A stretch of DNA of 56,806 nt, taken from positions 1-56,806 of the forward strand of contig JAJYTC010000008.1 in NCBI GenBank assembly GCA_021793275.1, read 5' to 3'. A model generated the notes under the pieces. The model did not search any database. It was not told the DNA's origin and saw nothing but the letters and a program-made list of their open reading frames with translations. Shown piece after piece: positions 39,252 through 53,377 of this stretch; the stretch's first letter is position 1; each line of letters opens with the position of its first letter. A program made the position numbers and the translations under genes. The stretch comes from Deltaproteobacteria bacterium. GTDB lineage: Bacteria; Desulfobacterota; Syntrophobacteria; Syntrophobacterales; Syntrophobacteraceae.

Positions 39252-40331
39252 CTATAAGATCCCGTGGGAAACCGCGACGCTCTTGATAATGGCGAAAACC
39301 CGCATGCCGGGCTTCAAGTCAAGCGTTGAGAGGGCCATGGGAGTTATTCTGGCCAGAAGGGGACAGCCGATATCAAGCCTTACGTCCACCAGCGATCCGT
39401 TCCCGTTGGTGATTTCTTCAACGGTGCCGGGCAGGATATTCTGCACGCTGATTTGCTCTGGGGAAACAAGCGCAATGGCCACGTTTCTCGCCTCTATGCG
39501 CACCCTCACTCTGCTCCCGATCGAGACATCGAGCCGCGGGACCTTCAAGACGCCCCCCTGGAAACGCAGATAACTGAGACCGGCTGCCTCATGGTGTGAT
39601 TCCACAACCGTCGATATGACGGCGCCGCAATCGGTATATCCGGTTAAACTCTGCAGATCGCGGCGGCTCATCAGTTCTTCGATCGTGCCGGATGCGACCG
39701 CGCGGCCGGAATCCAGCACTACCATGACGTCGGCCAGGTTTAGAATCTCTTCGAGCGAATGGCTGACATAGAGTATGGGAAGGGAAAACTCGCCGGCCAA
39801 ACGGGCGATGAAGGGCAGCACTTCGGCTTTTCTGGCAAAATCAAGGGAAGCCAGCGGTTCGTCCATTAAAAGGACGGAAGGGCTCGTTAGCAGCGCCCGG
39901 CCGATGGCCACGCGCTGCTTTTCGCCCCCCGAGAGTTTGGCGGGACGGCGGTCGACGAGGTGATCGATACCGAGCAGGTTTACGACCTGATCGAACTCCA
40001 CATAGCGCTCCGGCTTGGGAGTAAGGCGCATTCCGTAAGTAAGGTTGGACCGTACGGAAAGATGAGGAAACAGCCGCCCTTCCTGAAAAACATAGCCCAC
40101 GCGCCTCTTTTCGGGAGGAAGGTCAATAGTTGACTTTGAATCGAAAAGGCAACGGCCGCCCACGATAATGTGGCCCTCATCCGGGCGAACGAGTCCTGCT
40201 ACCATGTTGATGATCGATGTCTTGCCTGCGCCCGAGCGGCCGAACAGTGCGGTCACGCACGCAGCTTCCGACCGAAATGTCGCATCTACCGTGAAATTGC
40301 CCTGCCGTCGCCTGACGCATACATCCAGCAC
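39252..40331 (-). CDS. modC: Molybdate/tungstate ABC transporter ATPase ModC
   Basis: About 359 residues. The start is placed at a GTG (40329-40331) with GAGGG 8 nt upstream, 11 bp after modB. A longer frame to 40760 only reads through modB out of frame and is rejected. The protein begins MLDVCVRRRQGNFTVDATF like other ModC proteins. It has Walker A GRSGAGKT (31-38), LSGGEKQRVAIGRALL and LLMDEPLASLD, and ends in two mop/TOBE oxyanion-binding modules (ISVQNILPGTVEEI... and VRVRIEARNVAIAL). It powers ModAB import. It is the last gene of DUF364-modA-modB-modC. Confidence 0.95.
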   Translation of the reverse strand: MLDVCVRRRQGNFTVDATFRSEAACVTALFGRSGAGKTSIINMVAGLVRPDEGHIIVGGRCLFDSKSTIDLPPEKRRVGYVFQEGRLFPHLSVRSNLTYGMRLTPKPERYVEFDQVVNLLGIDHLVDRRPAKLSGGEKQRVAIGRALLTSPSVLLMDEPLASLDFARKAEVLPFIARLAGEFSLPILYVSHSLEEILNLADVMVVLDSGRAVASGTIEELMSRRDLQSLTGYTDCGAVISTVVESHHEAAGLSYLRFQGGVLKVPRLDVSIGSRVRVRIEARNVAIALVSPEQISVQNILPGTVEEITNGNGSLVDVRLDIGCPLLARITPMALSTLDLKPGMRVFAIIKSVAVSHGIL

Positions 40332-40342
40332 GAAATAAACCC

Positions 40343-41041
40343 TCAGCTTTCCATCCGGGCCGCATAGCGCCTGGCCAAAAGCTCCGATGCCACCAGGGCG
40401 GCCATCCCCAGGGCTACCGCGATAACGCACAGCCGCATCGCCGCCCGTTCCCCGCCGGGGATCTGGGTGAGTGTGTAGAGAGCCAGGGGAAGGGTCTGAG
40501 TCTGCCCCTGGATATTGGAGACGAACGTGATGGTTGCGCCGAATTCGCCAAGGCTGCGGGCGAAGGCTAAAATAGCCCCCGCTATCACACCCGGGACTAC
40601 AAGGGGCAGCGTCACAGTGAAAAACACTCTGAGCGGTCCGGCTCCAAGCGTTCGGGCCGCGGCCTCCAACCCCCGGTCCACGTTTTCGATAGAAAGCCTC
40701 ACAGCGCGCACGAGCAGCGGGAAAGCCATCACGGCAGACGCCAGCGCCGCTCCCTTCCATGTAAAGGCAATTGTGATTCCCAAAGTCTTATGAAGCCACG
40801 CACCCAGGATCCCCCTGTTCCCGAGCAGTACGAGCAGCAGGTAGCCCACCACTACGGGCGGCAGCACCAGCGGCAGATGAATCAGGCCGTCCAGGGCGGA
40901 TTTTCCTGGAAACCTGAGCCTCGCCAGCCCCCACGCCGCCAGTATGCCGAATGGAAGGCTCACGGCCACAGCCCAGCCGGAGACCCACAGGCTCAGCTTT
41001 AAAGCGTCGATTTCTACCGGGGTAAGACTGAACCAGCTCAT
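40343..41041 (-). CDS. modB: Molybdate/tungstate ABC transporter permease ModB
   Basis: A protein of 232 residues with five to six TM helices. It has the ABC permease coupling motif EAARTLGAGPLRVFFTVTLP, followed by FARSLGEFGATITFVSNIQG, which is diagnostic for ModB. Its start overlaps modA by 4 bp. It forms a dimer in the inner membrane that accepts oxyanion from ModA. Confidence 0.96.
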   Translation of the reverse strand: MSWFSLTPVEIDALKLSLWVSGWAVAVSLPFGILAAWGLARLRFPGKSALDGLIHLPLVLPPVVVGYLLLVLLGNRGILGAWLHKTLGITIAFTWKGAALASAVMAFPLLVRAVRLSIENVDRGLEAAARTLGAGPLRVFFTVTLPLVVPGVIAGAILAFARSLGEFGATITFVSNIQGQTQTLPLALYTLTQIPGGERAAMRLCVIAVALGMAALVASELLARRYAARMES

Positions 41042-41826
41042 TCTATCACGCTGAAGCCGTATTTTTCAAAAATCGCCCGCGCTTGAGGCGTCTTGAGAAA
41101 TTCGAGGAAACTCCTGGCGGCAGGAGTTTCCTGTCCGGTAACCAGGGCCGCCGGGTAGACGATCGGCGGATGGCTGCTCGCCGGGAATACTCCGATTATC
41201 TTGACCTTTTTCGTGATTGCGGCATCGGTGGCATAAACGATTCCAAGAGGCGCTTCGCCACGTTCGACCAAAACCAGCGCGAGCCGGACGTCGGCCTCCC
41301 TCGCCAGGCTCCCTTTAACGCTGTTCCAGACGCCCAGCGATTCGAGGGCCTGCTTTGCGTAAATACCTGCAGGCACATGCGCCGGGTCGCCCACTGAAAG
41401 CTTTCCGCCCGCAAGGAGCCGTGCGAGGTTGAAACCGCGGGTGATCTCAACCTTATTGAGCTTGCTGCCCGAAGGGGCGATCAATACGAGCCGGTTGCCA
41501 AGCAGATTGAAGCGGCTGGCGGGATCGATCACTTTTTTCTTTGCCAGATAATCCATCCACTTTTCATCTGCCGATATGAAGACGTTGGCCGGAGCGCCGT
41601 TTTCAATCTGTTTGGCAAGGGTCGAAGACGAGAGGTAGGAAGGCGTAAATGCGCACTTGTCCTTTTGTGCAAATAATTTGCCGATAGCATTCAAGGAGTT
41701 CGTGAGCGACGCGGCTGCGAATACGGTCACGTTGCCCTCCGCGCGTGCGGAAACATTAAAACCGACGAGAAAAGTCAGCGCCAACAGTACAGTAAAGACA
41801 CTTCCAGCCATCCGCTTCAGATTCAT
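41038..41826 (-). CDS. modA: Molybdate/tungstate-binding protein ModA
   Basis: About 262 residues from the ATG at 41824-41826 (CGGAG 6-7 nt upstream; an ATG at 41830 is possible). It has a signal peptide ending near ARA-EG. The periplasmic binding fold shows TVFAAASLTNSLNAIG, where the Ser contacts the oxyanion, then GAPANVFISADEKWMDYL, RLVLIAPSGS, GDPAHVPAGIYAKQAL and GIVYATDAAI with the Tyr ligand. It delivers molybdate or tungstate to ModBC. It lies 38 bp downstream of the DUF364 gene on the same strand. Confidence 0.95.
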   Translation of the reverse strand: MNLKRMAGSVFTVLLALTFLVGFNVSARAEGNVTVFAAASLTNSLNAIGKLFAQKDKCAFTPSYLSSSTLAKQIENGAPANVFISADEKWMDYLAKKKVIDPASRFNLLGNRLVLIAPSGSKLNKVEITRGFNLARLLAGGKLSVGDPAHVPAGIYAKQALESLGVWNSVKGSLAREADVRLALVLVERGEAPLGIVYATDAAITKKVKIIGVFPASSHPPIVYPAALVTGQETPAARSFLEFLKTPQARAIFEKYGFSVIE

Positions 41827-41864
41827 AATCATCTCCGATAGTTGTTAAAGCAATTTTCCTAACC

Positions 41865-42677
41865 TTAATCCCGGTCGGCGATCCCTCTATCCAAAGTCAT
41901 AAAGACCTTTCGGCTGAACTGGTGAATGACAGGGGTCCCGGCGCCGTGCCGCACTGCCTTCAATACCGCGTCCCCGTCCACTGCGACCGTCCCGGCCAGC
42001 ACCCGGACGGGCAGCCCGGCGAACGCTTCGCAGACCATCGGAGTGCTCGGCCCGAGCATGATCGCTTTGACTCCGGGGCCGATGCGGCCCAGCACCTCTT
42101 CGGTAGTGCCGTTCAAAATGGAGGTCGAGGTAAGGATCAGCACTTGCGCCCAATCGCCCAGTTTGTCGTAGAAAAGGGTCTCCTGCCCTCCATGCAAAAC
42201 GCGGCCGAACCCTAGATCTCCACCCTCCCTGTGGCGGGCATTTCGCTCGATCACTTCCACTGCCGCGCCCCTGTCTTTTAAAACCTTCATAATCGGCCGG
42301 AATAACCCGACCATAGCCACGCGGCTCCCGGCTCCAATGCCCAAAGAATCCATCCAGGCCGTATCCGAGGGATCGTCCGGAAGCCTGCGCGCAGTCTCAT
42401 GGTTAAGCGCGTTTACAAGGGCCAGCGCCATGCTGCGGCCAAGGGGTGATCTACCTTTGATCAATTCCAGCAGTTCGGACGCCCTTTCGCCTTCGTAGTC
42501 CCGGTAGTCTTCACGCTTCGGGCAGCAACCCCCGCCCCCTGTGTAAGTGTAGGCGATCCCCGTTGCGCCTTCCTCTGTTACCACCGCCGTGTAGCGTAAA
42601 CCAGCGCAAAGGTGGACAACCTTCGTCCCGAGCGCCTTTTCATGAAAAAGATCGTAGAGATTCTCGACGAGTCCCAT
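41865..42677 (-). CDS. DUF4213/DUF364 (putative heavy-metal chelation) protein
   Basis: About 270 residues. The start is placed at the third in-frame ATG (42675-42677) because GGGGAGG lies 6 nt upstream. The ATG at 42690 lacks a site. An N-terminal DUF4213 half (VENLYDLFHEKALGTKVVHLCAG, YTGGGGCCP) precedes a Rossmann-like DUF364 half (RVAMVGLFRPIMKVLKDRGAAVEVIER, VLILTSTSILNGTTEEVL, IMLGPSTPMVCEAF). The family is often found beside transition-metal and molybdenum uptake genes, and a chelation or handling role is assumed, not proven. It is the first gene of an operon with modABC. A decayed copy of its 5' end and promoter is at 46201-46503. Confidence 0.9.
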   Translation of the reverse strand: MGLVENLYDLFHEKALGTKVVHLCAGLRYTAVVTEEGATGIAYTYTGGGGCCPKREDYRDYEGERASELLELIKGRSPLGRSMALALVNALNHETARRLPDDPSDTAWMDSLGIGAGSRVAMVGLFRPIMKVLKDRGAAVEVIERNARHREGGDLGFGRVLHGGQETLFYDKLGDWAQVLILTSTSILNGTTEEVLGRIGPGVKAIMLGPSTPMVCEAFAGLPVRVLAGTVAVDGDAVLKAVRHGAGTPVIHQFSRKVFMTLDRGIADRD

Positions 42678-42900
42678 ATACATCCTCCCCATCGCGCCGT
42701 CGGAGCTTCCGGTCTGCCCTATGCCGCCGGCGCTTCCTCGAAGGGAAGCAAGAACAACAATATATATCGTGTTTACACGGCCATTAATATGTAAAAATTA
42801 CATCTATAGCCATTACTAATGGATGAAACGTCGTGTTTGGACCGTTACCAAGTAAACCTTTTACCCGCCTTAATCAAGGTAAAAAGGCAAAAACATGAAT
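42678..42900. promoter_or_regulatory. Divergent promoter region, copy 1 of a duplicated element
   Basis: Upstream region of DUF364-modABC. It aligns by eye over its whole length with 46296-46503, the region before the TonB-dependent receptor. Features: the near-palindrome CGTGTTTACACG (42768-42779), the perfect dyad ATGTAA-AAA-TTACAT (42789-42803), the shared block ACATCTATAG (about 42800-42809), and a hairpin at 42857-42887 (CCTTTTA ... TAAAAAGG with inner CCTT/AAGG). One or more of these is a candidate operator for an oxyanion-responsive regulator such as the one encoded at 52259. Confidence 0.6.
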
Positions 42901-43081: not shown

Positions 43082-43885
43082 CTAAGGGCGGAGGTGCGGC
43101 AAAGGGTACCATCCAAACACGATATCGAGCACGGTGAGCAGGACCAGACTCAAGCAGCCCAAAATCAGCGCCTTGTCGAGGAGACCGTAGCGGTCCTCGG
43201 TGACAAAAGTCCGTGTCTTTTTGCAGCCAAAAGCCCTGCCTTCCATCGAAACAACCAGGTCGTCCACGTGCGAGAGCGCACAAACAAGCAATGGTATAAC
43301 AGTACACCGGACGCATCGCATCAGGCCTCTTATGCCGGATTCATCGACGTTTAGTCCGCGCATCTTCTGGGCATTGGTCAGGGTTTTTGCCTCTTGTTCG
43401 AAAACCGTGGTCAGCCGCAACGCCAGGATCGCCATGAAACCGTAGCGGTAGGGAACTCCGATTCGCATGAGAGAATACAGTAAATCGACCGGATCTGTGG
43501 TGGCGACGAACAGTGCGCCAACCATCACCACGGACACAAAGCGCATCGCAATGACCATGCCGTTCAGCAGCCCTGCATCCGTGATGCGCAGACGGGTAAA
43601 ATAGAGCGGAACGGTGATCAAAACCGTTCCCGAATGCGTCATGACTGCCTGCATGATGAGCACTACGACTACGAGCGCCAAAACGAAGCGTGACAGCATG
43701 AATGCGCAAACCTGCCGGCTGCCGGTAATGCGCTCCATGACGAGGACGGCCGCAATGCAAAGCAGCTCCAGTCGCAGGCTGGCCAGGAGAAACACGATGA
43801 GACTGTACGCAACCACAACCGAGAGCTTGGCTATCGGGTTCAGCCGATGGAGAAACGAACTGCCTTTTTCGAATTTTACCATCAT
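43082..43885 (-). CDS. ECF transporter T component (CbiQ/EcfT family)
   Basis: A protein of 267 residues with five or six TM helices. It has the cytoplasmic coupling helices of the CbiQ/EcfT family, seen as MRGLNVDESG and SMEGRAFGCKKTRT (the two A-x-x-x-A/G-R-G-type motifs that contact the ATPases). It couples ATP hydrolysis to toppling of the S component. It overlaps the ATPase gene by 4 bp (ATGA). It is the last gene of the S-A-T operon that lies downstream of the decayed DUF364 copy. The CbiQ-like label does not prove cobalt transport. Confidence 0.9.
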   Translation of the reverse strand: MMVKFEKGSSFLHRLNPIAKLSVVVAYSLIVFLLASLRLELLCIAAVLVMERITGSRQVCAFMLSRFVLALVVVVLIMQAVMTHSGTVLITVPLYFTRLRITDAGLLNGMVIAMRFVSVVMVGALFVATTDPVDLLYSLMRIGVPYRYGFMAILALRLTTVFEQEAKTLTNAQKMRGLNVDESGIRGLMRCVRCTVIPLLVCALSHVDDLVVSMEGRAFGCKKTRTFVTEDRYGLLDKALILGCLSLVLLTVLDIVFGWYPLPHLRP

Positions 43886-45465
43886 GGCTCGTCCGGCAAA
43901 AAGCTGATCTTTCCGATCTCCCGAATTCGCCGGCGCGCCATCTGCGGAACATCGTCGATCAGGACCCTGCCGGCGTCGAAGAGCAGAATGCGGGTGCAGT
44001 AGCGGAACACCATATCGATATCATGCGAGACAATCAGCACGGTATACCCCTCATGTTTCAAACGAAGCGCGGCGGCCATAATTTTTGCCGCATTGAGAGG
44101 GTCCTGGCCGATGAAAGGTTCATCGAGCATGATTATGCCTGGTCCGTGCGGCAGTACCGAGCACAAGTTAAGCCGACGTTTCTCTCCGTGGCTGAGTCGG
44201 AGCGGGTGGAACTCCTCGTAGGATTTGAGATCAAATTCCGATAATACCCTGTGCGCCGTCCTGGCGGTGATCTCCGGGTCAAGGCCGAAATTTCCGGAGG
44301 CGAAGCTGACCTCGGCGCCTACCGTGTTCTCGAAAATCTGATGGTTGGGGTTCTGAAAAACGAAACCTATATCGCGCGCGATAGTAGAGACCTTGACGCC
44401 CCGGGTATTTACTCCGCGCACCTCTATGTCTCCGGAATCGGGCTGGTTCAACCCGGCCAGGCATTCCAGAAATGTCGTCTTACCGGAACCGTTGGCGCCG
44501 ATGATCCCGATGAACTCACCCCGCCTGACTTTGAGTGAAACACCGTGCAACACTTCCACTTCTCTCCGTTTGAACCGCAGGTCGCGTACGTCCAAAACGA
44601 TCGGGCCTTCCGCAGAGGTTTCCGTGTCCGGCGTGGGTGGTTGCGCGATCACGCCGCACTCGTCATGCAACCTGGCGACGTACTGCCGGTAAACCTCATC
44701 GGGCTTTCCCGCGAGCCGGATTTCTCCCTGCGCCATCACGATCAGCCGGTCCGCCAGGCGCAGCAAAGGAGAAAGTCTATGCTCGATAATTACGAGCGTT
44801 ATCTTCCTGCTTTGTCTAAGTTTCTCGACGGCCAGCAACACTTCGTGCGCAGCCTCGGGATCCAGGTTGGAAGTGGGTTCATCAAGGATAAGAACCCGTG
44901 GATTCATCGCCAGCATGGAAGCAAGGGCTACACGCTGTTTTTCGCCGCCGGACAGCCCGACTGTTTTACGGCCCTTGAGGTGCAGACAATCGATGGCGGC
45001 AAGAGACTCTTCTTCGCGCCGTAATACCTCGGCCACCGGCAGCGCCAGGTTTTCGGGGCCGAAGCGAACCTCGTCATCAACCGTAAAAGTGCACATCTGT
45101 GCTTCCGGGTCCTGTTGGCAAAGTGATATGGCCACCGCAAGGTCGCACAATGCAAATTCCGTGGTGCAGGCGCCGCAAACCCTGACCTCGCCGGTCATCG
45201 TCCCCTCGACGACATGCGGGATATAGCCGGCCATTGCCAGGGCAAGGGCCGACTTTCCGGAACCCGAAGAACCGGTGATTACAACAAATTCTCCTTCTGC
45301 TACCTCAAAAGAGATGTTCCGCAAAGCCGGGAGGCTGCGATCGGGGAAACAAAAGCTCAGGTCCCGGATGGAAATCGCTGGAAACACGCGGGAAGAGCCG
45401 TTTGGCTGCAACCGTGCGGAGACAATATCGCCCTCGGTCCTTTTGCGCAATCGTTGGAGTCTCAT
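43882..45465 (-). CDS. ECF transporter duplicated ATPase (two fused ABC domains)
   Basis: About 527 residues from the ATG at 45463-45465, which forms ATGA with the stop of the S component. A longer frame to 45579 would overlap the S gene by over 100 bp and is rejected. Domain 1 has GSSGSGKSALA, SGGEKQRVALASML and VLILDEPTSNLD. Domain 2 has GANGSGKTTFLE, a signature changed to LSHGEKRRLNLC, and IIMLDEPFIGQD. Both ATPases are in one chain, unlike the usual EcfA1/EcfA2 pair. It powers the adjacent S and T subunits. Confidence 0.92.
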   Translation of the reverse strand: MRLQRLRKRTEGDIVSARLQPNGSSRVFPAISIRDLSFCFPDRSLPALRNISFEVAEGEFVVITGSSGSGKSALALAMAGYIPHVVEGTMTGEVRVCGACTTEFALCDLAVAISLCQQDPEAQMCTFTVDDEVRFGPENLALPVAEVLRREEESLAAIDCLHLKGRKTVGLSGGEKQRVALASMLAMNPRVLILDEPTSNLDPEAAHEVLLAVEKLRQSRKITLVIIEHRLSPLLRLADRLIVMAQGEIRLAGKPDEVYRQYVARLHDECGVIAQPPTPDTETSAEGPIVLDVRDLRFKRREVEVLHGVSLKVRRGEFIGIIGANGSGKTTFLECLAGLNQPDSGDIEVRGVNTRGVKVSTIARDIGFVFQNPNHQIFENTVGAEVSFASGNFGLDPEITARTAHRVLSEFDLKSYEEFHPLRLSHGEKRRLNLCSVLPHGPGIIMLDEPFIGQDPLNAAKIMAAALRLKHEGYTVLIVSHDIDMVFRYCTRILLFDAGRVLIDDVPQMARRRIREIGKISFLPDEP

Positions 45466-46061
45466 TTGGCCGCTATCGTTTGCCTTTTGCCGGTCGCAGG
45501 GGCGATACCGCGCATTCTTGCTACTCCGGCTTTTTCCAAAATGACGGCCGCACTGTATGGAAACAATCCGCCCAGGCAAGCTCCCGAGGCAAATGCAACG
45601 GCGCCAAAACTCAACGCGACCGAGGTGGGTCCAAAGGGATGAAAGGTCAGTTGAAAAAGGATAATGTGTGCAATCGAGCTCAGCCCTCCCGCCAGCACCA
45701 TGGCCGGCACAAGACCCAGCCCACTTGCCGGCCAGTAGCCGACTTCGGCCAGGATCCCCTGCATCAGCCCCACCGGCAGGACCAGAACGCCTATGTGGCT
45801 CCCCATCAAAAACTGGATAAGATTATCCACGACGGCGCACAACAACCCGCTGCCCTTCCTGTTCACCAGCGCCAATGTGAGGACCACCCAGAAAACATGC
45901 AGCCCGTCAAACAACTGAGAGGCTAAAGGAATGCCGGTCGCTGAGCCGAGCATATGTCCGATGTAGCCGAGATAGGTCGATGCGATAGCTCCCAGGCAAG
46001 CCAGGACCGCTATGGTCACCAGATCTTTGGTTCGAAAGTAGTGCTTCGTTGTCACAGTCAT
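45462..46061 (-). CDS. ECF transporter substrate-binding S component (YkoE-like)
   Basis: About 199 residues from the ATG at 46059-46061. A GTG at 46097 would add 12 residues, and neither has a strong ribosome-binding site. Five or six TM helices are present. The pattern of an N-terminal G...P..F.GL segment, VNRKGSGLLCAVVDNLIQFLMGS, HIGVLVLPVGLMQGILAE and a final GLLFPY-like helix resembles the YkoE/ThiW-type S components, some of which take up thiamin precursors. I see no TPP riboswitch upstream. The context (DUF364 remnant, Mo/W promoter copy) suggests a different substrate. The 3' end overlaps the ATPase start by 4 bp. Confidence 0.8.
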   Translation of the reverse strand: MTVTTKHYFRTKDLVTIAVLACLGAIASTYLGYIGHMLGSATGIPLASQLFDGLHVFWVVLTLALVNRKGSGLLCAVVDNLIQFLMGSHIGVLVLPVGLMQGILAEVGYWPASGLGLVPAMVLAGGLSSIAHIILFQLTFHPFGPTSVALSFGAVAFASGACLGGLFPYSAAVILEKAGVARMRGIAPATGKRQTIAAK

Positions 46062-46295: not shown

Positions 46296-46503
46296 ATAAA
46301 CCTTCCCCATCCCGCAGTCGGACCTTCCGGTCTGCCCTCTGCCGCCCGCGCTTGCTCGGCGGGAGGCGGGAATAAAAAATGTCCGTTTCATATAACACTT
46401 GACATTCAAAAACTACATCTATAGTCTTGTTAATGCGCCGAATATCGTGTTTGTACCATTTGCAAGTAATCCTTTTACCGGCCTTCATCAAGGTTAAAAA
46501 GTG
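46296..46503. promoter_or_regulatory. Divergent promoter region, copy 2, upstream of the TonB-dependent receptor
   Basis: It aligns with 42678-42896. On the plus strand TTGACA (46409-46414) and TATAGT (about 46430-46435) are about 15 bp apart and are possible -35/-10 boxes for the receptor gene. The hairpin CTTTTA...TAAAAAG with inner CCTT/AAGG is kept (46471-46501). In the other direction the element faces the DUF364 remnant and the ECF operon. A leader of about 155 bp, rich in GC in its first half, separates it from the receptor start. Confidence 0.55.
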
Positions 46504-46657
46504 AAAAATCGGGAGCTTGCGCCTACTCCGTCCTTTTCATCGCAAAAGGGGCGGGTATTCGTTCCGGCGAGCTTCGTCTGCTGTAATGGGGGGACTGGTT
46601 TTCATTTCCAATAAAACAGGAGCGAACAGGTTTTTTTAACAAGGGAGGAGAGATGGT

Positions 46658-48787
46658 ATGGGAGGCATGGTAAAAGGCGCCTGCGCGGTTGCGCTGGCCG
46701 TGGCGTTGTGCTTTGTGGCTGTTCCGGGGGCCGATGCCGGGCAGGACCTGTCCGGGTTGCAGAGCCCGAACGATCAAGGTTCTTCTCCGGCCGCAAAAGA
46801 GGCGGAGAAAAAGAGAGTCGCCAAAAAGAAGGCGTCTTCTAAAGGTAAAAAGAAACCGGGTAAAGAAAGCGAAGCGAAAAAAAATCAAGTGTTCCAACTG
46901 GGTCAGGTCGAAGTGTTCGGAAACGAGACCGAAAGCAAGAACACGACGGTGAACAGAGTTTATTCCAACCAAATGCTGCTTTTGGACACGGACAACGTGG
47001 CAACGGCGGCAAACCTCGTGCCGGGCGTGACGCTCTCCTCGAACGGTCAGAGAAACGAGGAGAATGTCTATATTCGAGGCTTCGGGCCGAACGAGGTCCC
47101 GGTCTTCCTCGATGGCGTCCCCATATACGATCCGTATTTCGGCTACCCGCCTCTCGCCGAATTTACCACCTATGGCTTTTCGGAAATGGTTATTTCCAAG
47201 GGCTTTACCTCGGTTCTCTACGGTCCGAACACCATGGGTGGCGCCATCAACCTGATCACCATAAAGCCGCAGAAGAAATTCGAATGTAACGGCGGCTCCG
47301 GGTATGGCTCCGGCGACACCTATCACGGCTACATGAATTTCGGAACCAACCAGGGAAAGTGGTACATGGAAGCTGGAGGCGCCTACGAGAACCAAGGGGA
47401 CTTCCCCCTGTCGTCCAGTTTCACGCCGACCCAGGTCCAGGGGGAGGGGGCCAGGGTAAATTCGGGTTTTGACAACTGGCAAGGTCATATAACACTGGGG
47501 CTTACGCCAAACGACACCGACCAATATGCCATTACCTTCATGAGACTGGATGAGCAAAAGGAAATTCCGCCCTACACCGGGACGGACCCCAACATGAGGA
47601 CTATGTACTGGAGATGGCCCTCCTGGGATTTCCAGGATATTCACTTCAATTCGAACACTGCCGTCTATAACGAAAGCTATGTGAAAACGACCGCTTTCTA
47701 CGATATCTATGACAATAATTTAAACAGCTATACCAACGAAAACTACAATATAATCCAGTCCCCTCCCGGATATTCGTTCATGAGTTTCTATAACGACTAC
47801 TCGTATGGCGGATCGATTGAGGGCGGGACTAAACTCGTGCCTCATAACGACATCCAGGCAGCGTTCCATTTCAAAGACGACGTTCACAGGCAGTGGGAGA
47901 CCATCCCGGTTCAACCGGTTACACAAGATCAGGATCGAACCTATTCGTGGGGCCTGCAGGATACGGTCGGCTTCACTAAGAGGCTCTATTCGATCATGGG
48001 GGTAAGCTATGACTGTCTGCAAACAGTCCAGGCCCCAGGTTTTCCGCTTTATTCGGATAATACCTGGAACCCTCAAATCGGTCTTTTCTACAAGATCGGC
48101 GCTACCGGCACGCTCCACGTAAGTGTCGAGGATAAATCGAGGCTTCCTACCCTTTGGGAGCGGTATTCCTACAGCCTCAAACCGGGGTTGCCGAACCCGG
48201 GCCTGAGACCTGAGAAAGCGACCAACTGGGAAGTCGGCTACAAGGGCCTTATAGGCGGACAACTGGCCGTTGAAGCCACCGCATTCTACGATAACGTCCA
48301 TGACTTCATACTCGACGTCCCGACAGATGTAGCCGCGCCTGGAGGCGGGGTGTACTTCGAGAACCAGAACGTCGGCCACATCGAGTTTTCGGGCATTGAA
48401 CTCGGATTAAACGGGCAAATACTCTCACACCTAAAAGGCGGCGCGAACTATACGTATCTTCAATACGTCAACGTCGACAACAATTTGCTGATTACCAACC
48501 TTCCGCATAACAAGGTTTATGCCTACCTGCAGTACTTCATGCCCGTAAAGGGGTGGAGCATGGTGGGATCGGTCGAATATGACTCCCAAAGGTACAGTGA
48601 TGCGTCATACGCGCCAGCCGTAGCGACGGCGTTTGCGCTGGTGAACTTCAAGGAAATCTACGAGATTTATCCGGGCGTCCAGCTCGAAGCCGGCGTCAAC
48701 AACCTGTTCGACAAGAACTGGGAGCTTGAGGAAGGCTTCCCCCTGGCGGGGCGTACATTCTTTTTTCAGATGCTGTTCAAGTCTTGA
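46658..48787 (+). CDS. TonB-dependent outer-membrane receptor
   Basis: A protein of 709 residues from the ATG at 46658 (GGGAGGAG upstream). It has a signal peptide (about 5-27, ending ADA). A strongly basic linker (about 50-75, mostly Lys) is unusual and sits before the plug. The plug domain has VEVFGNETESKNTTVN, LVPGVTLSSNGQRNEENVYIRGFG, VPVFLDGVPIYDP and VLYGPNTMGGAINLIT. The beta barrel ends in GRTFFFQMLFKS with a terminal aromatic pattern. It imports a large or scarce ligand with energy from TonB (50222). The company of FmdE-like, Mop, ModABC and a Mo-type regulator suggests molybdate, tungstate or a chelate of them, but cobamides or other metallophores cannot be excluded. Confidence 0.95.
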   Translation: MGGMVKGACAVALAVALCFVAVPGADAGQDLSGLQSPNDQGSSPAAKEAEKKRVAKKKASSKGKKKPGKESEAKKNQVFQLGQVEVFGNETESKNTTVNRVYSNQMLLLDTDNVATAANLVPGVTLSSNGQRNEENVYIRGFGPNEVPVFLDGVPIYDPYFGYPPLAEFTTYGFSEMVISKGFTSVLYGPNTMGGAINLITIKPQKKFECNGGSGYGSGDTYHGYMNFGTNQGKWYMEAGGAYENQGDFPLSSSFTPTQVQGEGARVNSGFDNWQGHITLGLTPNDTDQYAITFMRLDEQKEIPPYTGTDPNMRTMYWRWPSWDFQDIHFNSNTAVYNESYVKTTAFYDIYDNNLNSYTNENYNIIQSPPGYSFMSFYNDYSYGGSIEGGTKLVPHNDIQAAFHFKDDVHRQWETIPVQPVTQDQDRTYSWGLQDTVGFTKRLYSIMGVSYDCLQTVQAPGFPLYSDNTWNPQIGLFYKIGATGTLHVSVEDKSRLPTLWERYSYSLKPGLPNPGLRPEKATNWEVGYKGLIGGQLAVEATAFYDNVHDFILDVPTDVAAPGGGVYFENQNVGHIEFSGIELGLNGQILSHLKGGANYTYLQYVNVDNNLLITNLPHNKVYAYLQYFMPVKGWSMVGSVEYDSQRYSDASYAPAVATAFALVNFKEIYEIYPGVQLEAGVNNLFDKNWELEEGFPLAGRTFFFQMLFKS

Positions 48788-48791
48788 TGTT

Positions 48792-48842
48792 TTGCGGGCG
48801 TGAGGCCGCCACCCCGCGGTTTTCGCCCGCAAGGACCGGCTG
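48792..48842 (+). other. Stem-loop between the receptor gene and the FmdE-like gene
   Basis: TTGCGGGCG (48792-48800) pairs perfectly with CGCCCGCAA (48834-48842). It begins 5 nt after the receptor stop and has no U-tract. It may protect the receptor mRNA or reduce read-through to the downstream genes. Confidence 0.55.
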
Positions 48843-48877
48843 CAGTCTCCCCGCTGCATCCGATCGGGAGGCAGATT

Positions 48878-49492
48878 ATGAATGAGGATTTCAAGGCGCT
48901 GCTCGATGAAGCAGTAAGATTGCATGGTCACCTCTGTGGAGGGCAGATCATAGGCGTGAGAATGGCCATGGCGGGATTGAGGGAACTGGGCATTAAAGAG
49001 CCCAGAGGAAAGGAGGGCCGGGACCTGGTCATATTTGTCGAAATCGACCGGTGTCCTGTCGACGCCATCATTGCGGTGACCGGCAGGACTCCGGGCAGGC
49101 GAAGCATCAAGATGATGGATTACGGAAAGCAGGCGGCAACCTTTGTGGATACACGGACATCGAGGGCAGTCAGGATAAGCGTTAAAGCGGATTCTTTCGA
49201 AAAGGCCGGGCTGGTCGCGAAAACTCTCACCAGCCTCAACGATGAAAAGCAGGCGCATCTCGAAGCGCTGGCCTCGATGCCCGAACAGGACCTGTTGAGC
49301 ATTCGCCGGGTAAGGGTCGCGATCAGGCCGGAGGACCTTCCCGGAGAGACGCTCGGGACCGTTATGTGCAGAAAGTGCGGAGAAACGGTGAGGGATATGC
49401 GCCAGGCGGGTGGTGAGGGCGATGTTCTTTGTAAACCTTGCGCTCTTGGCGAGTGCTATTACGAGGAAATCTCAAGTGAAACCGATGGTTGA
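48878..49492 (+). CDS. FmdE-like protein with C-terminal zinc ribbon
   Basis: A protein of 204 residues from the ATG at 48878 (GGGAGGC upstream). The FmdE domain has the conserved HGHLCGGQIIGVRMAM and IDRCPVDAI, whose His and Cys residues form a metal site in the family named after subunit E of tungsten/molybdenum formylmethanofuran dehydrogenase. The C-terminus has a C-x2-C (CRKC) and a C-x2-C (CKPC) ribbon, as in many FmdE proteins. No formylmethanofuran dehydrogenase is nearby, so a role in Mo/W or metal handling is likely. Its stop overlaps the next gene by 8 bp. Confidence 0.88.
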   Translation: MNEDFKALLDEAVRLHGHLCGGQIIGVRMAMAGLRELGIKEPRGKEGRDLVIFVEIDRCPVDAIIAVTGRTPGRRSIKMMDYGKQAATFVDTRTSRAVRISVKADSFEKAGLVAKTLTSLNDEKQAHLEALASMPEQDLLSIRRVRVAIRPEDLPGETLGTVMCRKCGETVRDMRQAGGEGDVLCKPCALGECYYEEISSETDG

Positions 49493-50282
49493 CTGGAACG
49501 AAATATGGCAAAAGACGCAGATCGAAAAACATGGCGTCATGCGCGATCCCGCGTTTTGGGACAAGCGGGCGCCTGAATTTACCCGTTATGCGACGGCAAG
49601 TGATTATATCGGCCAGTTTCTGCAGATCATGAAACCCGAACCGGACTGGAGCGTGCTCGACATCGGGTGTGCGGCGGGGACCCTCGCGGTCCCCCTGGCC
49701 CCGGCGGTTAAATCCATTACCGGGCTCGACCCTTCCCCCGTGATGCTCTCGCTTCTCGAACAACGCTGCCGCAAGAAGGACATAGGCAATATCAGGGCCG
49801 TAAGGGGCAGGTGGCAGGACGACTGGGATGAGCTTGGCATTGGTGTGCACGATGTCGCCATAGCGTCGAGGTCGCTCATGGTGGACGATCTGCGCCAGGC
49901 ACTGCTCAAGCTCCAAAGCCGGGCGCGCAAGCGGGTTTATGTCACGGCCCTGGTCGAGGACGGCCCTTATGACCGCAGGATTGTCGAGGCCGCCGGCAGG
50001 AAGTGCTCTCTCGGGGCCGATTACATAGTTGTGTACAATCTTCTGCGCCAGATGGGGATCTATGCCAACATCAATATTACTGTAACCTCCAACGACGACA
50101 GCTATGGCAGCCTCGAAGAGGCGCTCGATTCCATGCGCTGGATGATTTACGAAATGACCCCTGAAGAAGAGGAAAATGTCAGGAACTACCTGAGGGGCTG
50201 CCTTGTCATGGATGAGGGGAGGTGGAAATTACCCTATTCACGGATCGAACGCTGGGCTGTGATCTGGTGGAACAGGAATTAG
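49485..50282 (+). CDS. Class I SAM-dependent methyltransferase
   Basis: A protein of 265 residues from the ATG at 49485, 8 bp inside the FmdE-like gene. It has SAM motif I VLDIGCAAGTLAVPLA, then ITGLDPSPVML (the acidic residue for the ribose) and a motif II region HDVAIASRSLMVDD. The N-terminus, VDWNEIWQKTQIEKHG, may form a lid over the substrate. I cannot tell the substrate, and a small molecule or metallophore precursor is a guess from context. The 3' end overlaps the assigned tonB start by 61 bp. Confidence 0.88.
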   Translation: MVDWNEIWQKTQIEKHGVMRDPAFWDKRAPEFTRYATASDYIGQFLQIMKPEPDWSVLDIGCAAGTLAVPLAPAVKSITGLDPSPVMLSLLEQRCRKKDIGNIRAVRGRWQDDWDELGIGVHDVAIASRSLMVDDLRQALLKLQSRARKRVYVTALVEDGPYDRRIVEAAGRKCSLGADYIVVYNLLRQMGIYANINITVTSNDDSYGSLEEALDSMRWMIYEMTPEEEENVRNYLRGCLVMDEGRWKLPYSRIERWAVIWWNRN

Positions 50283-51205
50283 GACAGGAAGAAGGCCCGC
50301 CGGGGGAAGCGAATCCGATCGAGGACGTCGAGGTTTCCGAATGGGTGTTCGAAGGCTTGCGGTCCCGTCGGATGTGTCGTCGTGAGACCGCTACGGGATT
50401 GGGACTTGCAATTTGCCTTCATGTACTCGTACCTGCCCTGGTTTTGCTTTCGGGTCTTCTTTTCGCCGTCCCGCCCGTATCCAAACCGCCTTCTGTAACG
50501 GTAAGCCTGGTGACCCTGGCAGGCGTCGGCGTCGGCGCCGGCGGCTTCCCGGGTGCGCCCGGGTTACCAGGGCCGGGTGCCGCCGGTTTCGAGGGAAAAA
50601 AAGCTTCCCCGATCCCGCTCGGGCCGGCGGTCGGGGCACAAAGAAAAGCTCGAGCGAAACCGCGAAAAAAAGTTTCTCTCACCGCAAAACCGGTTAAGCG
50701 GTTATCGAGACGGAGCCCTGTTATTTACAGCCGCCGAAGGGAAAAGGTTTTTCGGGATCGGCCTGCTCCCGCTCGCGCGCCTGCCTCGCACACCCAGCCT
50801 GCGCCGGCTTCCGGCGCGGTGCAAGGTCCGAAGGGCAACAAGGTTGGAGGTGGTTCACTCCCCGGCGGTGGCGCTGGAGCAGGCTCGGGACAGGGAACCG
50901 GCGGATCGGGAGGATTCGGTTTTAAACAGGTTGACATACCGCCGATCCCGATTAAAAAGGTAGTGCCGGAATTTCCCGATGTGGCCAGGCAAATGGGCAT
51001 TTCGGGCAAAGTAGTCCTTAAGTTTCTGGTAGAGGCGAATGGAAGAGTCGCCAAGGCTTCGGTCATCGCAGCCCGGCCGAAGGGAGTTTTCAATCAAAGC
51101 GCGCTGGAGGCCATCGGTGAGTGGAAATTCAAACCCGGCCGTTACCGGGGGAAAGCGGTGGCCGTATGGGTAGAGTTGCCGGTTCGCTTCGATCTTTCCA
51201 GGTAG
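50222..51205 (+). CDS. tonB: TonB energy-transducing protein
   Basis: About 327 residues. The GTG at 50222 has GAGGGGAG very close upstream, and starts further in (for example the ATG at residue 50) are possible, so the N-terminus is uncertain. A single TM segment (about 58-82, LAICLHVLVPALVLLSGLLF) is followed by a Gly/Pro-rich and Lys/Arg-rich periplasmic spanner. The C-terminal TonB fold has VVPEFPDVARQMGISGKVVLKFLVEANGRV and LEAIGEWKFKPGRYRGK. It drives the receptor encoded at 46658. No exbB/exbD genes are in the window, so it must use a distant motor. A fragment of it is duplicated at 42911-42980. Confidence 0.9.
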   Translation: MEITLFTDRTLGCDLVEQELGQEEGPPGEANPIEDVEVSEWVFEGLRSRRMCRRETATGLGLAICLHVLVPALVLLSGLLFAVPPVSKPPSVTVSLVTLAGVGVGAGGFPGAPGLPGPGAAGFEGKKASPIPLGPAVGAQRKARAKPRKKVSLTAKPVKRLSRRSPVIYSRRREKVFRDRPAPARAPASHTQPAPASGAVQGPKGNKVGGGSLPGGGAGAGSGQGTGGSGGFGFKQVDIPPIPIKKVVPEFPDVARQMGISGKVVLKFLVEANGRVAKASVIAARPKGVFNQSALEAIGEWKFKPGRYRGKAVAVWVELPVRFDLSR

Positions 51206-51220
51206 ACAGAGGAGATTTCC

Positions 51221-51748
51221 ATGAAAACCGTGATGAAGACTGGACCGGACGGTCATTCGAACGATCTTCCGGGTAAAGCGGTTCTGCCCCGACAGGCAGG
51301 CGCCGCCACTCTCTCAGGGGCTCTGCGGGTAACAGGCAGAGTTAAGGAGCCTCTTGTCCTTTCCATCGAAGAGCTGTGCGGCATGGAAACCGAGGAGGCA
51401 AGGGACATTGCGGTCAATTGCGGCGAGGGGACTCCTGTGGGAAGAATCGAGAGCTGCAGGGGAGTGCTCCTCGAGAATGTGATCGGAAGGGCTGCAGTGT
51501 TGAAGGAAGATCACAACGATACGAAAAAGATGTATATCGTAGCTTCGGCCTCGGATGGTTACAAAGCCGTCTTTTCCTGGCAGGAGATATTCAATACTCA
51601 AATCGGAGGCGGCGTGATGGTGCTGATCGAAAGGGACGAAAAGTCGCTCGGCGCCGGCGGCCTCGAACTCATTTCCCTCGAGGACTATTTCAGCGGGCCG
51701 AGGTATGTAAAAGGGCTGGAAACCATCGAGGTGCTTATGGTCGGATGA
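51221..51748 (+). CDS. Stand-alone sulfite-oxidase-like molybdopterin-binding domain (175 aa)
   Basis: The product has the start of the oxidoreductase molybdopterin-binding fold: LRVTGRVKEPLVLSIEELCGM, then IAVNCGEGTPVG with Cys67 in the place where the family has its Mo-ligating Cys, then SCRGVLLENVIGRA, and a C-terminal KGLETIEVLMVG strand. It is about half the length of YedY or sulfite oxidase and has no signal peptide or dimerisation domain. It may bind molybdopterin or oxyanion without catalysis. GAGGAGA lies upstream of the ATG. A terminator follows. Confidence 0.75.
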   Translation: MKTVMKTGPDGHSNDLPGKAVLPRQAGAATLSGALRVTGRVKEPLVLSIEELCGMETEEARDIAVNCGEGTPVGRIESCRGVLLENVIGRAAVLKEDHNDTKKMYIVASASDGYKAVFSWQEIFNTQIGGGVMVLIERDEKSLGAGGLELISLEDYFSGPRYVKGLETIEVLMVG

Positions 51749-51859: not shown

Positions 51860-52066
51860 CTATTTGGCAAGCATCACACTCGTGGCTTTGATAAGGATAT
51901 TGATGTCGTCGCCAACCTTTACGTCCAATTCCTTGACCGCCTCGAGGCTGACCAGGGCTGAGACGACATTGCCGCTACCGATATCGACTTTCACCTTCGC
52001 CATTACCGCGCCTTCCTTTACGTCCGTTACCTTCCCCTTGAAAACGTTTCTCGCGCTGAGTTTCAT
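51860..52066 (-). CDS. mop: Molbindin (Mop), single TOBE-domain protein
   Basis: A protein of 68 residues beginning MKLSARNVFKGKVTDV and ending INILIKATSVMLAK, an almost exact fit to the length and pattern of stand-alone Mop proteins. By family, these oligomerise into rings that bind several molybdate or tungstate ions, a store or buffer in the cytoplasm. AGGAGATACGAC precedes the ATG. It is divergent from the regulator gene at 52259 and convergent with the SUOX-like gene. The last ~10 codons are also found, decayed, at 42983-43033. Confidence 0.95.
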   Translation of the reverse strand: MKLSARNVFKGKVTDVKEGAVMAKVKVDIGSGNVVSALVSLEAVKELDVKVGDDINILIKATSVMLAK

Positions 52067-52258: not shown

Positions 52259-53377
52259 ATGAAGACCGAAAAGGAGCAGGTCGTTTGCAATCTCAAGTCG
52301 ATTCGCAAGGCAAGCGGGCTGTCTCAGAGCGAACTGGCCGAGAGAGTAGGCGTAAAGCGCCAGGCCGTCTATGACATGGAGACCGGGCGGTATGTGCCTA
52401 ACACTGCCCTTGCGTTAAGAATCGCAAAAGAGCTGGGCTGCAGAGTCGAAACTCTCTTTGCCCTGGATGACTCGGAAGACGAAAAGCCCATAACCCTGGT
52501 CGAAAAAGCCGAGGGGGCGAGTGCCAGGGTCTCGGTCGCCAGTGTGCGGGATCGGCTCGTCGCCTACCCGCTGGACGGCAAATGGCTTTTAAACGATGGG
52601 TTTCAGGCCGCGGACGGTCTGCTTTCGCCCGATAGCGGCCGCGTGCAGCTCCTTCACAGTGGGCGGATCGAAAAAAAGGTTCTGCTGCTTGGCTGCGATC
52701 CGGCCTTCGCGATCCTTGGCGCGCGCGCATCCATGCGGTCGGCGGACGTAGCAGTCCAGTGCAGGTTCGCATCGAGCCGGCTTGCCCTGGAAAGAGTTGC
52801 CACGGGTTGCGCCCATATCGCAGGAACGCACCTCCATAACCTGCCAACGGTTGAATCGAATCTGTCTTTCGCTCGGAAGATGCTGCCGGGCGCCAAGGCG
52901 ATGGTGGTAGCTTTCTCGTTCTTCGAGGAAGGTCTCATGGTCGCGCCCGGAAATCCACGCCGGATATGTTCGGTGGTAGACCTTGCCAGGGAAGGCACAA
53001 GGATGGTGAACCGCGAACCCGGCGCCGCTTTGCGAACCCTTCTCGATGAACGGTTGGCGCAGGTGGGAATTTCGGGCGATTCGATCCAGGGATACGACAA
53101 ACTTGTTCCCAGCCACAACCTGTGCGCCCAGATGGTTGCCTTCCATATGGCCGACGCCGCCCTGGGGCTCCGGGCCGTAGCCGCCGCCTACGGTTTGGAT
53201 TTCGTTCCCATGGAGGCCGTACGTTGCGATCTGGTGATCCCTTCCGACTTTCTCGACCTTCCCGCCGTAAAGGTCCTCCTCGACATCCTGCAGACGCGCT
53301 CGCTTCGCGACGAACTCTCGGCGCTTCCCGGCTACGAATCTTCCTGCACCGGTAAGGTGATCGGAGAGGTATCTTGA
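52259..53377 (+). CDS. XRE-family regulator fused to a molybdate-binding-type periplasmic-binding domain
   Basis: A protein of 372 residues. The N-terminal XRE helix-turn-helix (about 8-62; SGLSQSELAERVGVKRQAVYDMETGRYVPN) is followed by a PBP-like domain (about 120-345; LLLGCDPAFAILGAR, HIAGTHLHNLPTVESNL, SYDKLVPSHNLCAQMVAFHMADAALGLRAVA) of the type annotated as a cytosolic molybdate-binding domain in regulators. It should sense an oxyanion or molybdopterin-linked signal and control nearby genes. GGAGG lies 9 nt before the ATG. Position and domain make it the best candidate regulator of the Mo/W block. Confidence 0.9.
   Translation: MKTEKEQVVCNLKSIRKASGLSQSELAERVGVKRQAVYDMETGRYVPNTALALRIAKELGCRVETLFALDDSEDEKPITLVEKAEGASARVSVASVRDRLVAYPLDGKWLLNDGFQAADGLLSPDSGRVQLLHSGRIEKKVLLLGCDPAFAILGARASMRSADVAVQCRFASSRLALERVATGCAHIAGTHLHNLPTVESNLSFARKMLPGAKAMVVAFSFFEEGLMVAPGNPRRICSVVDLAREGTRMVNREPGAALRTLLDERLAQVGISGDSIQGYDKLVPSHNLCAQMVAFHMADAALGLRAVAAAYGLDFVPMEAVRCDLVIPSDFLDLPAVKVLLDILQTRSLRDELSALPGYESSCTGKVIGEVS

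Follow-up and report, generated by a model that had tools for sequence, protein, structure and literature searches.

The operon at positions 46658-51748 of a 56,806-nucleotide stretch of DNA from a Deltaproteobacteria bacterium of the family Syntrophobacteraceae (contig JAJYTC010000008.1 of assembly GCA_021793275.1; the whole stretch is called the window) probably serves the TonB-driven uptake of molybdenum (Mo) or tungsten (W) species across the outer membrane, with the metal being handed over to the molybdate importer ModABC in the window and to an importer that resembles MolBCA in relatives. An earlier, sequence-only reading of the window had proposed that these genes could make, modify, import or unload a Mo or W carrier. 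The link to Mo and W has gained strength, since the operon shares its control region with modABC, Mo genes occur at 18 of 30 examined loci, the binding protein of the relatives is related to MolA, and iron, nickel or B12 genes do not recur. The further proposals, namely synthesis, methylation or unloading of a carrier by these genes and the existence of a methylated chelator, go beyond these results.

Anatomy and conservation of the cluster

The operon lies on contig G000:C246 of the window genome (G000; 4.65 Mb in 278 contigs), with all five genes tightly packed on the plus strand. Domains were called on the open reading frames (ORFs) of the window with Pfam, and cut-offs for curated models are those of the NCBIfam equivalogs. 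The first gene (46658..48787) encodes a TonB-dependent outer-membrane receptor with a signal peptide, a plug (64.9 bits) and a beta-barrel (117.5 bits). It is followed by a gene for an FmdE-family protein (48878..49492, with a likely ATG start at 48878 in the frame 48800-49492; 113.4 bits), by the marker gene of the cluster, which encodes an S-adenosylmethionine (SAM)-dependent methyltransferase (Methyltransf_25; 49476..50282, with start at GTG 49476 or ATG 49485), by a gene for the energy-coupling protein TonB (TonB_C, 74.4 bits; 50222..51205), which has the same position in relatives, and by a gene for a stand-alone protein of the SUOX fold, predicted to be cytosolic (51221..51748). With its TonB and a receptor that has signal peptide, plug and barrel, the operon qualifies as a TonB-dependent outer-membrane transport system. 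The close order described from the sequence holds in detail: the overlap of 8 bp runs from ATG 49485 to the FmdE stop at 49492, that of 61 bp from GTG 50222 to the methyltransferase stop at 50282, and the gap of 15 bp is 51206-51220. The TonB start at GTG 50222 is uncertain, because the alignment with most relatives begins only at residue 23. No match was obtained when the window was scanned for Rfam families and tRNAs.

The operon is flanked by Mo genes on both sides, as the sequence-only reading had it. On the right are mop (51860..52066, minus strand; TIGR00638, 75.6 bits against a cut-off of 55), which encodes a molbindin-type Mo/W-binding protein, and a gene (52259..53377, plus strand) for a predicted Mo/W-responsive regulator with a helix-turn-helix domain (HTH_3) and a PBP_like domain (PF12727), with Pfam scores of 180.4 and 51.8 bits. 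On the left, on the minus strand, is the canonical molybdate importer modABC (39252..41832), in which modA (41038-41832; 324.9 bits, cut-off 253), modB (40343-41041; 354.6 bits, cut-off 262) and modC (39252-40760; 450.8 bits, cut-off 285) all exceed their equivalog cut-offs. Three points were absent from the earlier reading: a DUF4213-DUF364 gene ('putative heavy-metal chelation'; 41865..42692, minus strand, 122.7 bits) heads the modABC operon, a cassette for an energy-coupling factor (ECF) transporter lies between modABC and the receptor gene, and most other relatives encode a FecBCD-type importer within the operon.

The cluster is conserved and not a chance array, since identical gene order recurs in other genomes. 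When the methyltransferase was searched for in 60 relatives, ten genomes, every one from the same family, gave orthologues with 60-82% identity. A second scan, with the methyltransferase alignment over 84,980 species genomes, gave 36 loci, which range from Thermodesulfobacteriota to Acidobacteriota and Spirochaetes: they lie in Syntrophobacteraceae, Desulfobacteraceae, Syntrophorhabdus, Nitrospirales, Spirochaetes and Acidobacteriota and, as weak matches, in Coriobacteria, Chloroflexi, Desulfovibrio and, at chance level, Staphylococcus. The neighbourhood survey that the sequence-only reading had asked for thus finds the combination of receptor, FmdE and methyltransferase recurring: at the 30 examined loci, several of which are cut off at contig ends, there are 24 receptors, 24 FmdE proteins, 22 binding proteins, 21 TonB, 19 DUF364 and 15 SUOX-like proteins.

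The cluster occurs in two versions. In the window and four congeners the operon is kept together with a divergent DUF364-modABC operon, and FecBCD-type importer genes (Peripla_BP_2, FecCD and ATPase) are absent from it; the order in the four congeners is modC-modB-modA-DUF364, divergent from receptor-FmdE-methyltransferase-TonB-SUOX-(mop)-regulator, with no ECF cassette between. In other members of the family the Peripla_BP_2, FecCD and ATPase genes lie between methyltransferase and TonB. The HTH-PBP_like regulator has the same place in relatives from both Syntrophobacteraceae and Desulfobacteraceae.

Some loci have features of their own. The methyltransferase and regulator genes are apparently frameshifted in a draft genome of Desulfosarcina cetonica (L060:9976-12084). 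Three genomes have an aldehyde dehydrogenase gene (PF00171) within the cluster or close to it (window 54270-55751; L044:18099-19553; L055:10835-12298); the enzyme might replace tungsten aldehyde oxidoreductase without need of a metal. Two clusters have beside them a gene for a protein of 610-617 amino acids that joins a radical SAM domain to a Peripla_BP_2-like one (L044:14781-16613 and L069:6368-8221), an arrangement which suggests an enzyme that recognises the imported ligand.

A control region shared with modABC

That receptor and ModABC belong to one regulon is suggested most strongly by a control region which they have in common. One copy, R1 (42695..42893), lies upstream of DUF364-modABC and has the palindrome CCTTAATCAAGG at 42868-42879; the other, R2 (46313..46508), lies upstream of the receptor gene and has the operator-like sequence CCTTCATCAAGG at 46482-46493, with one mismatch to the palindrome. 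R1 and R2 form a 200-bp direct repeat with 74% identity (blastn, E 5e-31). A search of whole genomes gives the exact palindrome CCTTRATYAAGG a single time in the window genome and in each of three congeners (G006, G007 and G010). Its position is between the receptor gene and DUF364-modABC in these congeners and upstream of DUF364 in the window.

The repeat flanks the ECF cassette (43082..46055, minus strand; S component 45462-46055, fused A-A' 43882-45579, T component 43082-43885; Pfam and NCBIfam). From the two flanking copies it follows that the insertion came with a duplication of the control region: the ECF operon appears to have entered the control region between the divergent operons, and duplication of that region left one copy with each of them. 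Within the genus, the cassette separates modABC from the receptor gene only in the window genome; in the four congeners the ECF operon is found elsewhere in the genome, with neither control region nor receptor beside it, and the ECF transporter was for this reason rejected as a conserved part of the cluster.

Consider nevertheless the case that the ECF transporter, and not ModABC, is the inner-membrane partner, and that the operon takes up a vitamin-like compound. The ECF operon does diverge from the receptor gene across R2 in the window, and the S component is present in exactly those five genomes of the family where the operon has the ModABC version and lacks FecBCD genes, and in no other member of the family. 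This co-occurrence is weak evidence, because the five genomes are close relatives, and in four of them the ECF operon lies apart from the receptor. An ECF partner is accordingly quite improbable; the cassette is probably a clade trait and an accidental neighbour, and not part of the Mo system.

A candidate for binding the palindrome is the regulator at 52259..53377. The 'molybdate-type regulator' of the sequence-only reading is there, with HTH_3 and PF12727 domains, but it is not a ModE. With such a regulator, and with a palindrome that differs from the ModE box, the window operon would fall outside the ModE regulon; the search for a strict ModE box covered loci of relatives, and of these only L061 has one. 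No operator in common was found among palindromes upstream of receptors outside the genus, and a sigma-70 promoter scan gave no match at either control copy. In Desulfovibrio, a MoeA on which the W cofactor depends also has PF12727 at its C-terminus (PMC10102598).

Linkage to molybdenum and tungsten genes

The 18 loci with a Mo marker carry modA, a ModE-type regulator or an HTH-PBP_like regulator. ModE-type DNA-binding domains are found with NCBIfam at seven loci of relatives, most of them under the cut-off of that model. An initial impression that mop recurs widely was rejected: the ModE DNA-binding domain had been merged with mop, and the two were separated by means of Pfam and NCBIfam.

As a control, all FecCD permeases in 33 of the cluster genomes were divided into those near the methyltransferase (at most 10 kb) and all others, and markers were counted within 12 kb. 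A Mo marker accompanies 8 of 22 methyltransferase-linked FecCD genes and 2 of 66 others (Fisher P 1.6e-4), and FmdE accompanies 18 of 22 and 6 of 66, respectively (P 3e-10). These P values are optimistic, because related genomes are counted as independent. When ModE is left out and only mop or PBP_like markers are used, the enrichment is modest (P 0.06 and 0.03).

The sequence-only reading had held that linkage to iron, nickel or B12 genes in most genomes would speak against a Mo/W role. None of these is recurrent: the families that occur most often in 83 unassigned flanking ORFs include no Fur, Feo, Nik, Cob or heme family, and formate dehydrogenase beta, ExbB/ExbD and radical SAM families do recur there. 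Genes for formate dehydrogenases, i.e., Mo/W enzymes, flank three loci. Siderophore synthesis genes are not recurrent at the cluster loci.

The inner-membrane partner

The window genome has two TonB-dependent receptors in all. The other one, encoded beside cobO together with its own TonB, scores best against the TonB-B12 model, though under its cut-off; the one strong FecCD permease of the genome is encoded together with corrinoid methyltransferase genes and the gene of a BtuF-type binding protein. Since both thus lie with B12 genes, and since receptor operon and modABC are kept in the congener G010 (94% complete) even though no FecCD permease there scores over the cut-off, ModABC is the likeliest and most economical inner-membrane partner in the window, where it takes the place of the MolBCA-like importer of the relatives. 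Near cobO and the B12-type receptor, the same genome also encodes a fused NifH-NifD-like, i.e., nitrogenase-like, protein (L082:5462-7666).

Among solved structures, those nearest to the relatives' binding protein are 4pag (Sulfurospirillum) and 4ovk, followed by 4hn9 from Eubacterium and by MolA (HI_1472) of Haemophilus influenzae, which binds molybdate and tungstate (95 bits, Z 28.1). MolA is the nearest one with an assigned ligand, and BtuF is further away (41-47 bits, Z about 20). The two unrelated importers that would serve the operon, ModABC and a MolBCA-like one, have one substrate class in common as far as their known members go, namely Mo/W oxyanions.

The receptor

The receptor falls under the cut-off of every curated receptor model for B12, heme or siderophores, with 135.8 bits of 316.85 for TonB-hemin, 104.1 of 223.5 for the siderophore model and 85 of 599.7 for the B12 model. 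The B12 cut-off alone is a weak test, because the clear B12-type receptor of the genome also stays under it, with 118 bits. In a receptor tree with several long branches, where the deeper order is unsure, the methyltransferase-linked receptors form one clade of 18 rows (support 86/92, inner nodes 95-100), to which neither the B12-type receptor of the genome nor the second receptors at some loci belong. A grouping with cobalamin or siderophore receptors, which the sequence-only reading had named as counter-evidence, is thus not what is found. The second receptors form a distant clade of their own (L050:10937-13024, L055:13128-15206 and L048:10735-12876); in L050 and L055 they are followed by a second methyltransferase, DUF364 and FmdE before the importer.

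Could the receptor take another metal chelate or a tetrapyrrole, such as a ferric siderophore, heme, nickel or a corrinoid, so that Mo genes adjoin it simply because anaerobes control their metal systems together? The best receptor models, weak as they are (136 bits for TonB-hemin, then siderophore and B12 receptors), would fit this, as would the usual cargo of FecCD-type importers (iron chelates, heme or B12), the loci that lack a Mo marker, and a Clostridium operon, fmdE-methyltransferase(metM)-'hem'ABC, that is annotated as heme-type (PMC6615313). Against it stand the curated cut-offs, none of which is reached, the control region common to receptor operon and modABC, the flanking ORFs with their lack of frequent Fur, Feo, Nik, Cob or heme families, the separate B12 receptor and importer of the genome, and the higher frequency of Mo markers here than near other FecCD loci. 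Another chelate as cargo is therefore unlikely, and among the alternatives it is the one to be taken most seriously.

FmdE, methyltransferase, DUF364 and SUOX-like protein

The FmdE protein is cytosolic and of the two-domain type (PF02663), with an N-terminal HGHLCGG motif and a C-terminal CxxC...CxxC zinc finger. The zinc-finger pattern is present in 25 of 25 cluster homologues and the HGHxCxG-type motif in 19 of 25. FmdE genes mostly adjoin metal-ion transporters (PMC2954224), and DUF364 genes are associated with transport of iron, tungstate, vanadium and molybdate, with a proposed action on chelators (PMC2954201). The methyltransferase has a DIGCAAGT motif and, in the alignment, a conserved C-terminal RWAVxWW; no informative relative was found among solved structures.

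FmdE domains also occur in other settings. Frames of about 550-600 amino acids with this domain lie close to ModE-type regulators (G015:C1:45768 and 47523; G072:C24:231829 and 233573; G064:C165) and constitute another Mo-linked context for FmdE. On a Deinococcus plasmid the domain is found within a gene annotated as cobA (siroheme), near molybdopterin oxidoreductase and nirB (L077:5092-6573), and on a Citrobacter plasmid FmdE occurs with TauE/SafE transporters and a short LysR-type regulator (L079:2780-7359).

The product of 51221-51748 has no Pfam match, and a sequence search of its profile against solved structures gave only chance ribosomal matches; the fold was settled by a fold search with an AlphaFold2 (AF2) model of mean predicted confidence (pLDDT) 76, in which residues 1-31 are low. 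Sulfite dehydrogenase 2blf is matched with VIA Z 15.0 over 134 residues at 2.8 A, and PruR with Z 13.5-14.1, in fold lists where unlisted families may match too. The protein has 175 amino acids in a single domain, without the second (dimerisation) domain of SUOX enzymes. Cys67 is invariant in the cluster homologues and lies, as judged by eye, where the motif of the molybdenum-cofactor ligand is expected. The 'half-length molybdopterin-fold protein' of the sequence-only reading thus stands as far as the SUOX fold and the motif cysteine are concerned. Because Cys67 is kept and there is no signal peptide, the protein could hold a Mo or W ligand in the cytosol. A SUOX-domain protein in a Spirochaete (L053:1869-2957) has a lipoprotein-like N-terminus and adjoins two TonB-dependent receptors.

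A stand-alone SUOX-fold protein with its cysteine kept, and resembling the pterin-binding PruR, also brings up the case that a pterin or a compound like the molybdenum cofactor is imported rather than metal, with SUOX-fold protein and DUF364 binding the pterin and methyltransferase and FmdE processing it. The structure paper on DUF364 does suggest flavin or pterin-like chelators (PMC2954201). The SUOX-like gene is, however, present at only half of the examined loci, its product is cytosolic and PruR is secreted, MolA-type binding proteins take oxyanions, and pterin-processing genes are not among the frequent neighbours of the cluster loci. Import of a pterin is for these reasons improbable.

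Proposed mechanism and comparison with known systems

From the parts described, the following scheme may be drawn. The receptor, energised by its own TonB, would pull a Mo- or W-bearing species into the periplasm. This species is most likely an organic chelate, because free oxyanions can pass porins. In the clade of the window, ModA would then take over the metal and ModABC import it; in most relatives, the FecBCD/MolBCA-type importer encoded in the operon would perform the import. In the cytosol, FmdE, methyltransferase, DUF364 and SUOX-fold protein may take the metal over or serve to synthesise, free or recycle the ligand, and mop would act as a buffer for the metal. The HTH-PBP_like regulator would switch both operons through the GCCTTnATCAAGG operator in response to Mo/W status.

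The scheme could also be turned around, with the cytosolic enzymes trapping excess molybdate and the receptor uninvolved in Mo transport. Sulfate reducers are poisoned by molybdate (PMC10102598), but TonB-dependent receptors import, FecBCD with Peripla_BP_2 is an importer, and modABC has its control region in common with the receptor operon, so that detoxification is very hard to credit.

Uptake of Mo/W species has its own difficulties, and the following observations limit its support or weigh against it. Two palindrome sites at equal stringency are found in 10 of 100 shuffles of the window and are by themselves not rare; the palindrome evidence has weight because of position, conservation and the longer repeat, and not because of the number of sites. 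One congener (G004) lacks the left arm of the palindrome, the operator evidence comes from related genomes, and part of the conservation is shared descent. At twelve of the 30 loci the fetched sequence lacks a Mo marker, and these include not only cut contigs but also full-length Spirochaete loci. The weak best models of the receptor are those of heme receptors (TonB-hemin). The titles of the solved structures nearest to the relatives' binding protein, 4pag and 4ovk, name no ligand, and YiuA, a binder of iron-siderophore, is only somewhat further away (Z 26).

Comparison with known systems shows where uptake of Mo/W species by this operon would differ from them. The H. influenzae system MolBC-A (HI1470-1472) has, like the importer of the relatives, a FecCD-type permease and a Peripla_BP_2 binding protein, and the binding proteins are homologous; in the part of its description that was available, this low-affinity system is mentioned with no dedicated receptor, TonB, FmdE or methyltransferase, and in the window its importer is missing, with ModABC in its place. 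For Azotobacter, it has been proposed that a Mo-siderophore (protochelin, azotochelin) is imported across the outer membrane by a receptor and that the metal is released and captured by ModA (review PMC10780190). The present set, in contrast, belongs to anaerobes and includes a TonB gene of its own and genes for FmdE, methyltransferase, DUF364 and SUOX-like proteins of the cytosol; it has a control region in common with modABC, and genes for siderophore synthesis do not recur with it. The architecture of receptor, TonB and FecBCD in the relatives is that of the TonB-BtuB-BtuFCD and FecBCD systems, but the receptor belongs to another clade, Mo regulators take the place of B12 or Fur control, and the window has the type I importer ModABC. 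With the Mo/W regulator TaoR, ModE and the PF12727-bearing MoeA, the cluster has in common an HTH protein with PF12727 and, beside the clusters of relatives, ModE DNA-binding domains; the window regulator differs by its HTH_3 DNA-binding domain and by a palindrome that is not a ModE box, and it is a candidate operator binder only. PruR, finally, is similar to the SUOX-like protein in size and stand-alone fold, but is periplasmic and has Trp in place of Cys (PMC13259868).

Work on TonB-energised gates in the outer membrane has a long history where iron and vitamin B12 are concerned. Sulfidic water converts Mo into thiomolybdates and sulfides and so makes it scarce, yet sulfate reducers and syntrophs depend on enzymes with Mo or W, formate dehydrogenase among them. 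How such cells capture Mo or W at the outer membrane is not explained in the literature that was found; a TonB-dependent Mo/W receptor operon of this kind was not met with in the literature searched, which covers few subscription papers. One may, tentatively and with the balance of probability somewhat against it, go further and see here a 'molybdophore' system, i.e., a dedicated receptor for a Mo/W-specific metallophore in anaerobes, with a toolkit of FmdE, methyltransferase, DUF364 and SUOX-like protein that would build or unload the metallophore, and with interchangeable MolBCA-like and ModABC importers under one Mo/W regulon. The cluster places FmdE, DUF364 and stand-alone SUOX-fold proteins, which earlier structure papers connected with metal transport only in general, in a Mo/W context. 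It also supplies a named receptor, regulator, operator and importers, so that uptake of Mo and W through the outer membrane of these anaerobes is open to direct test.

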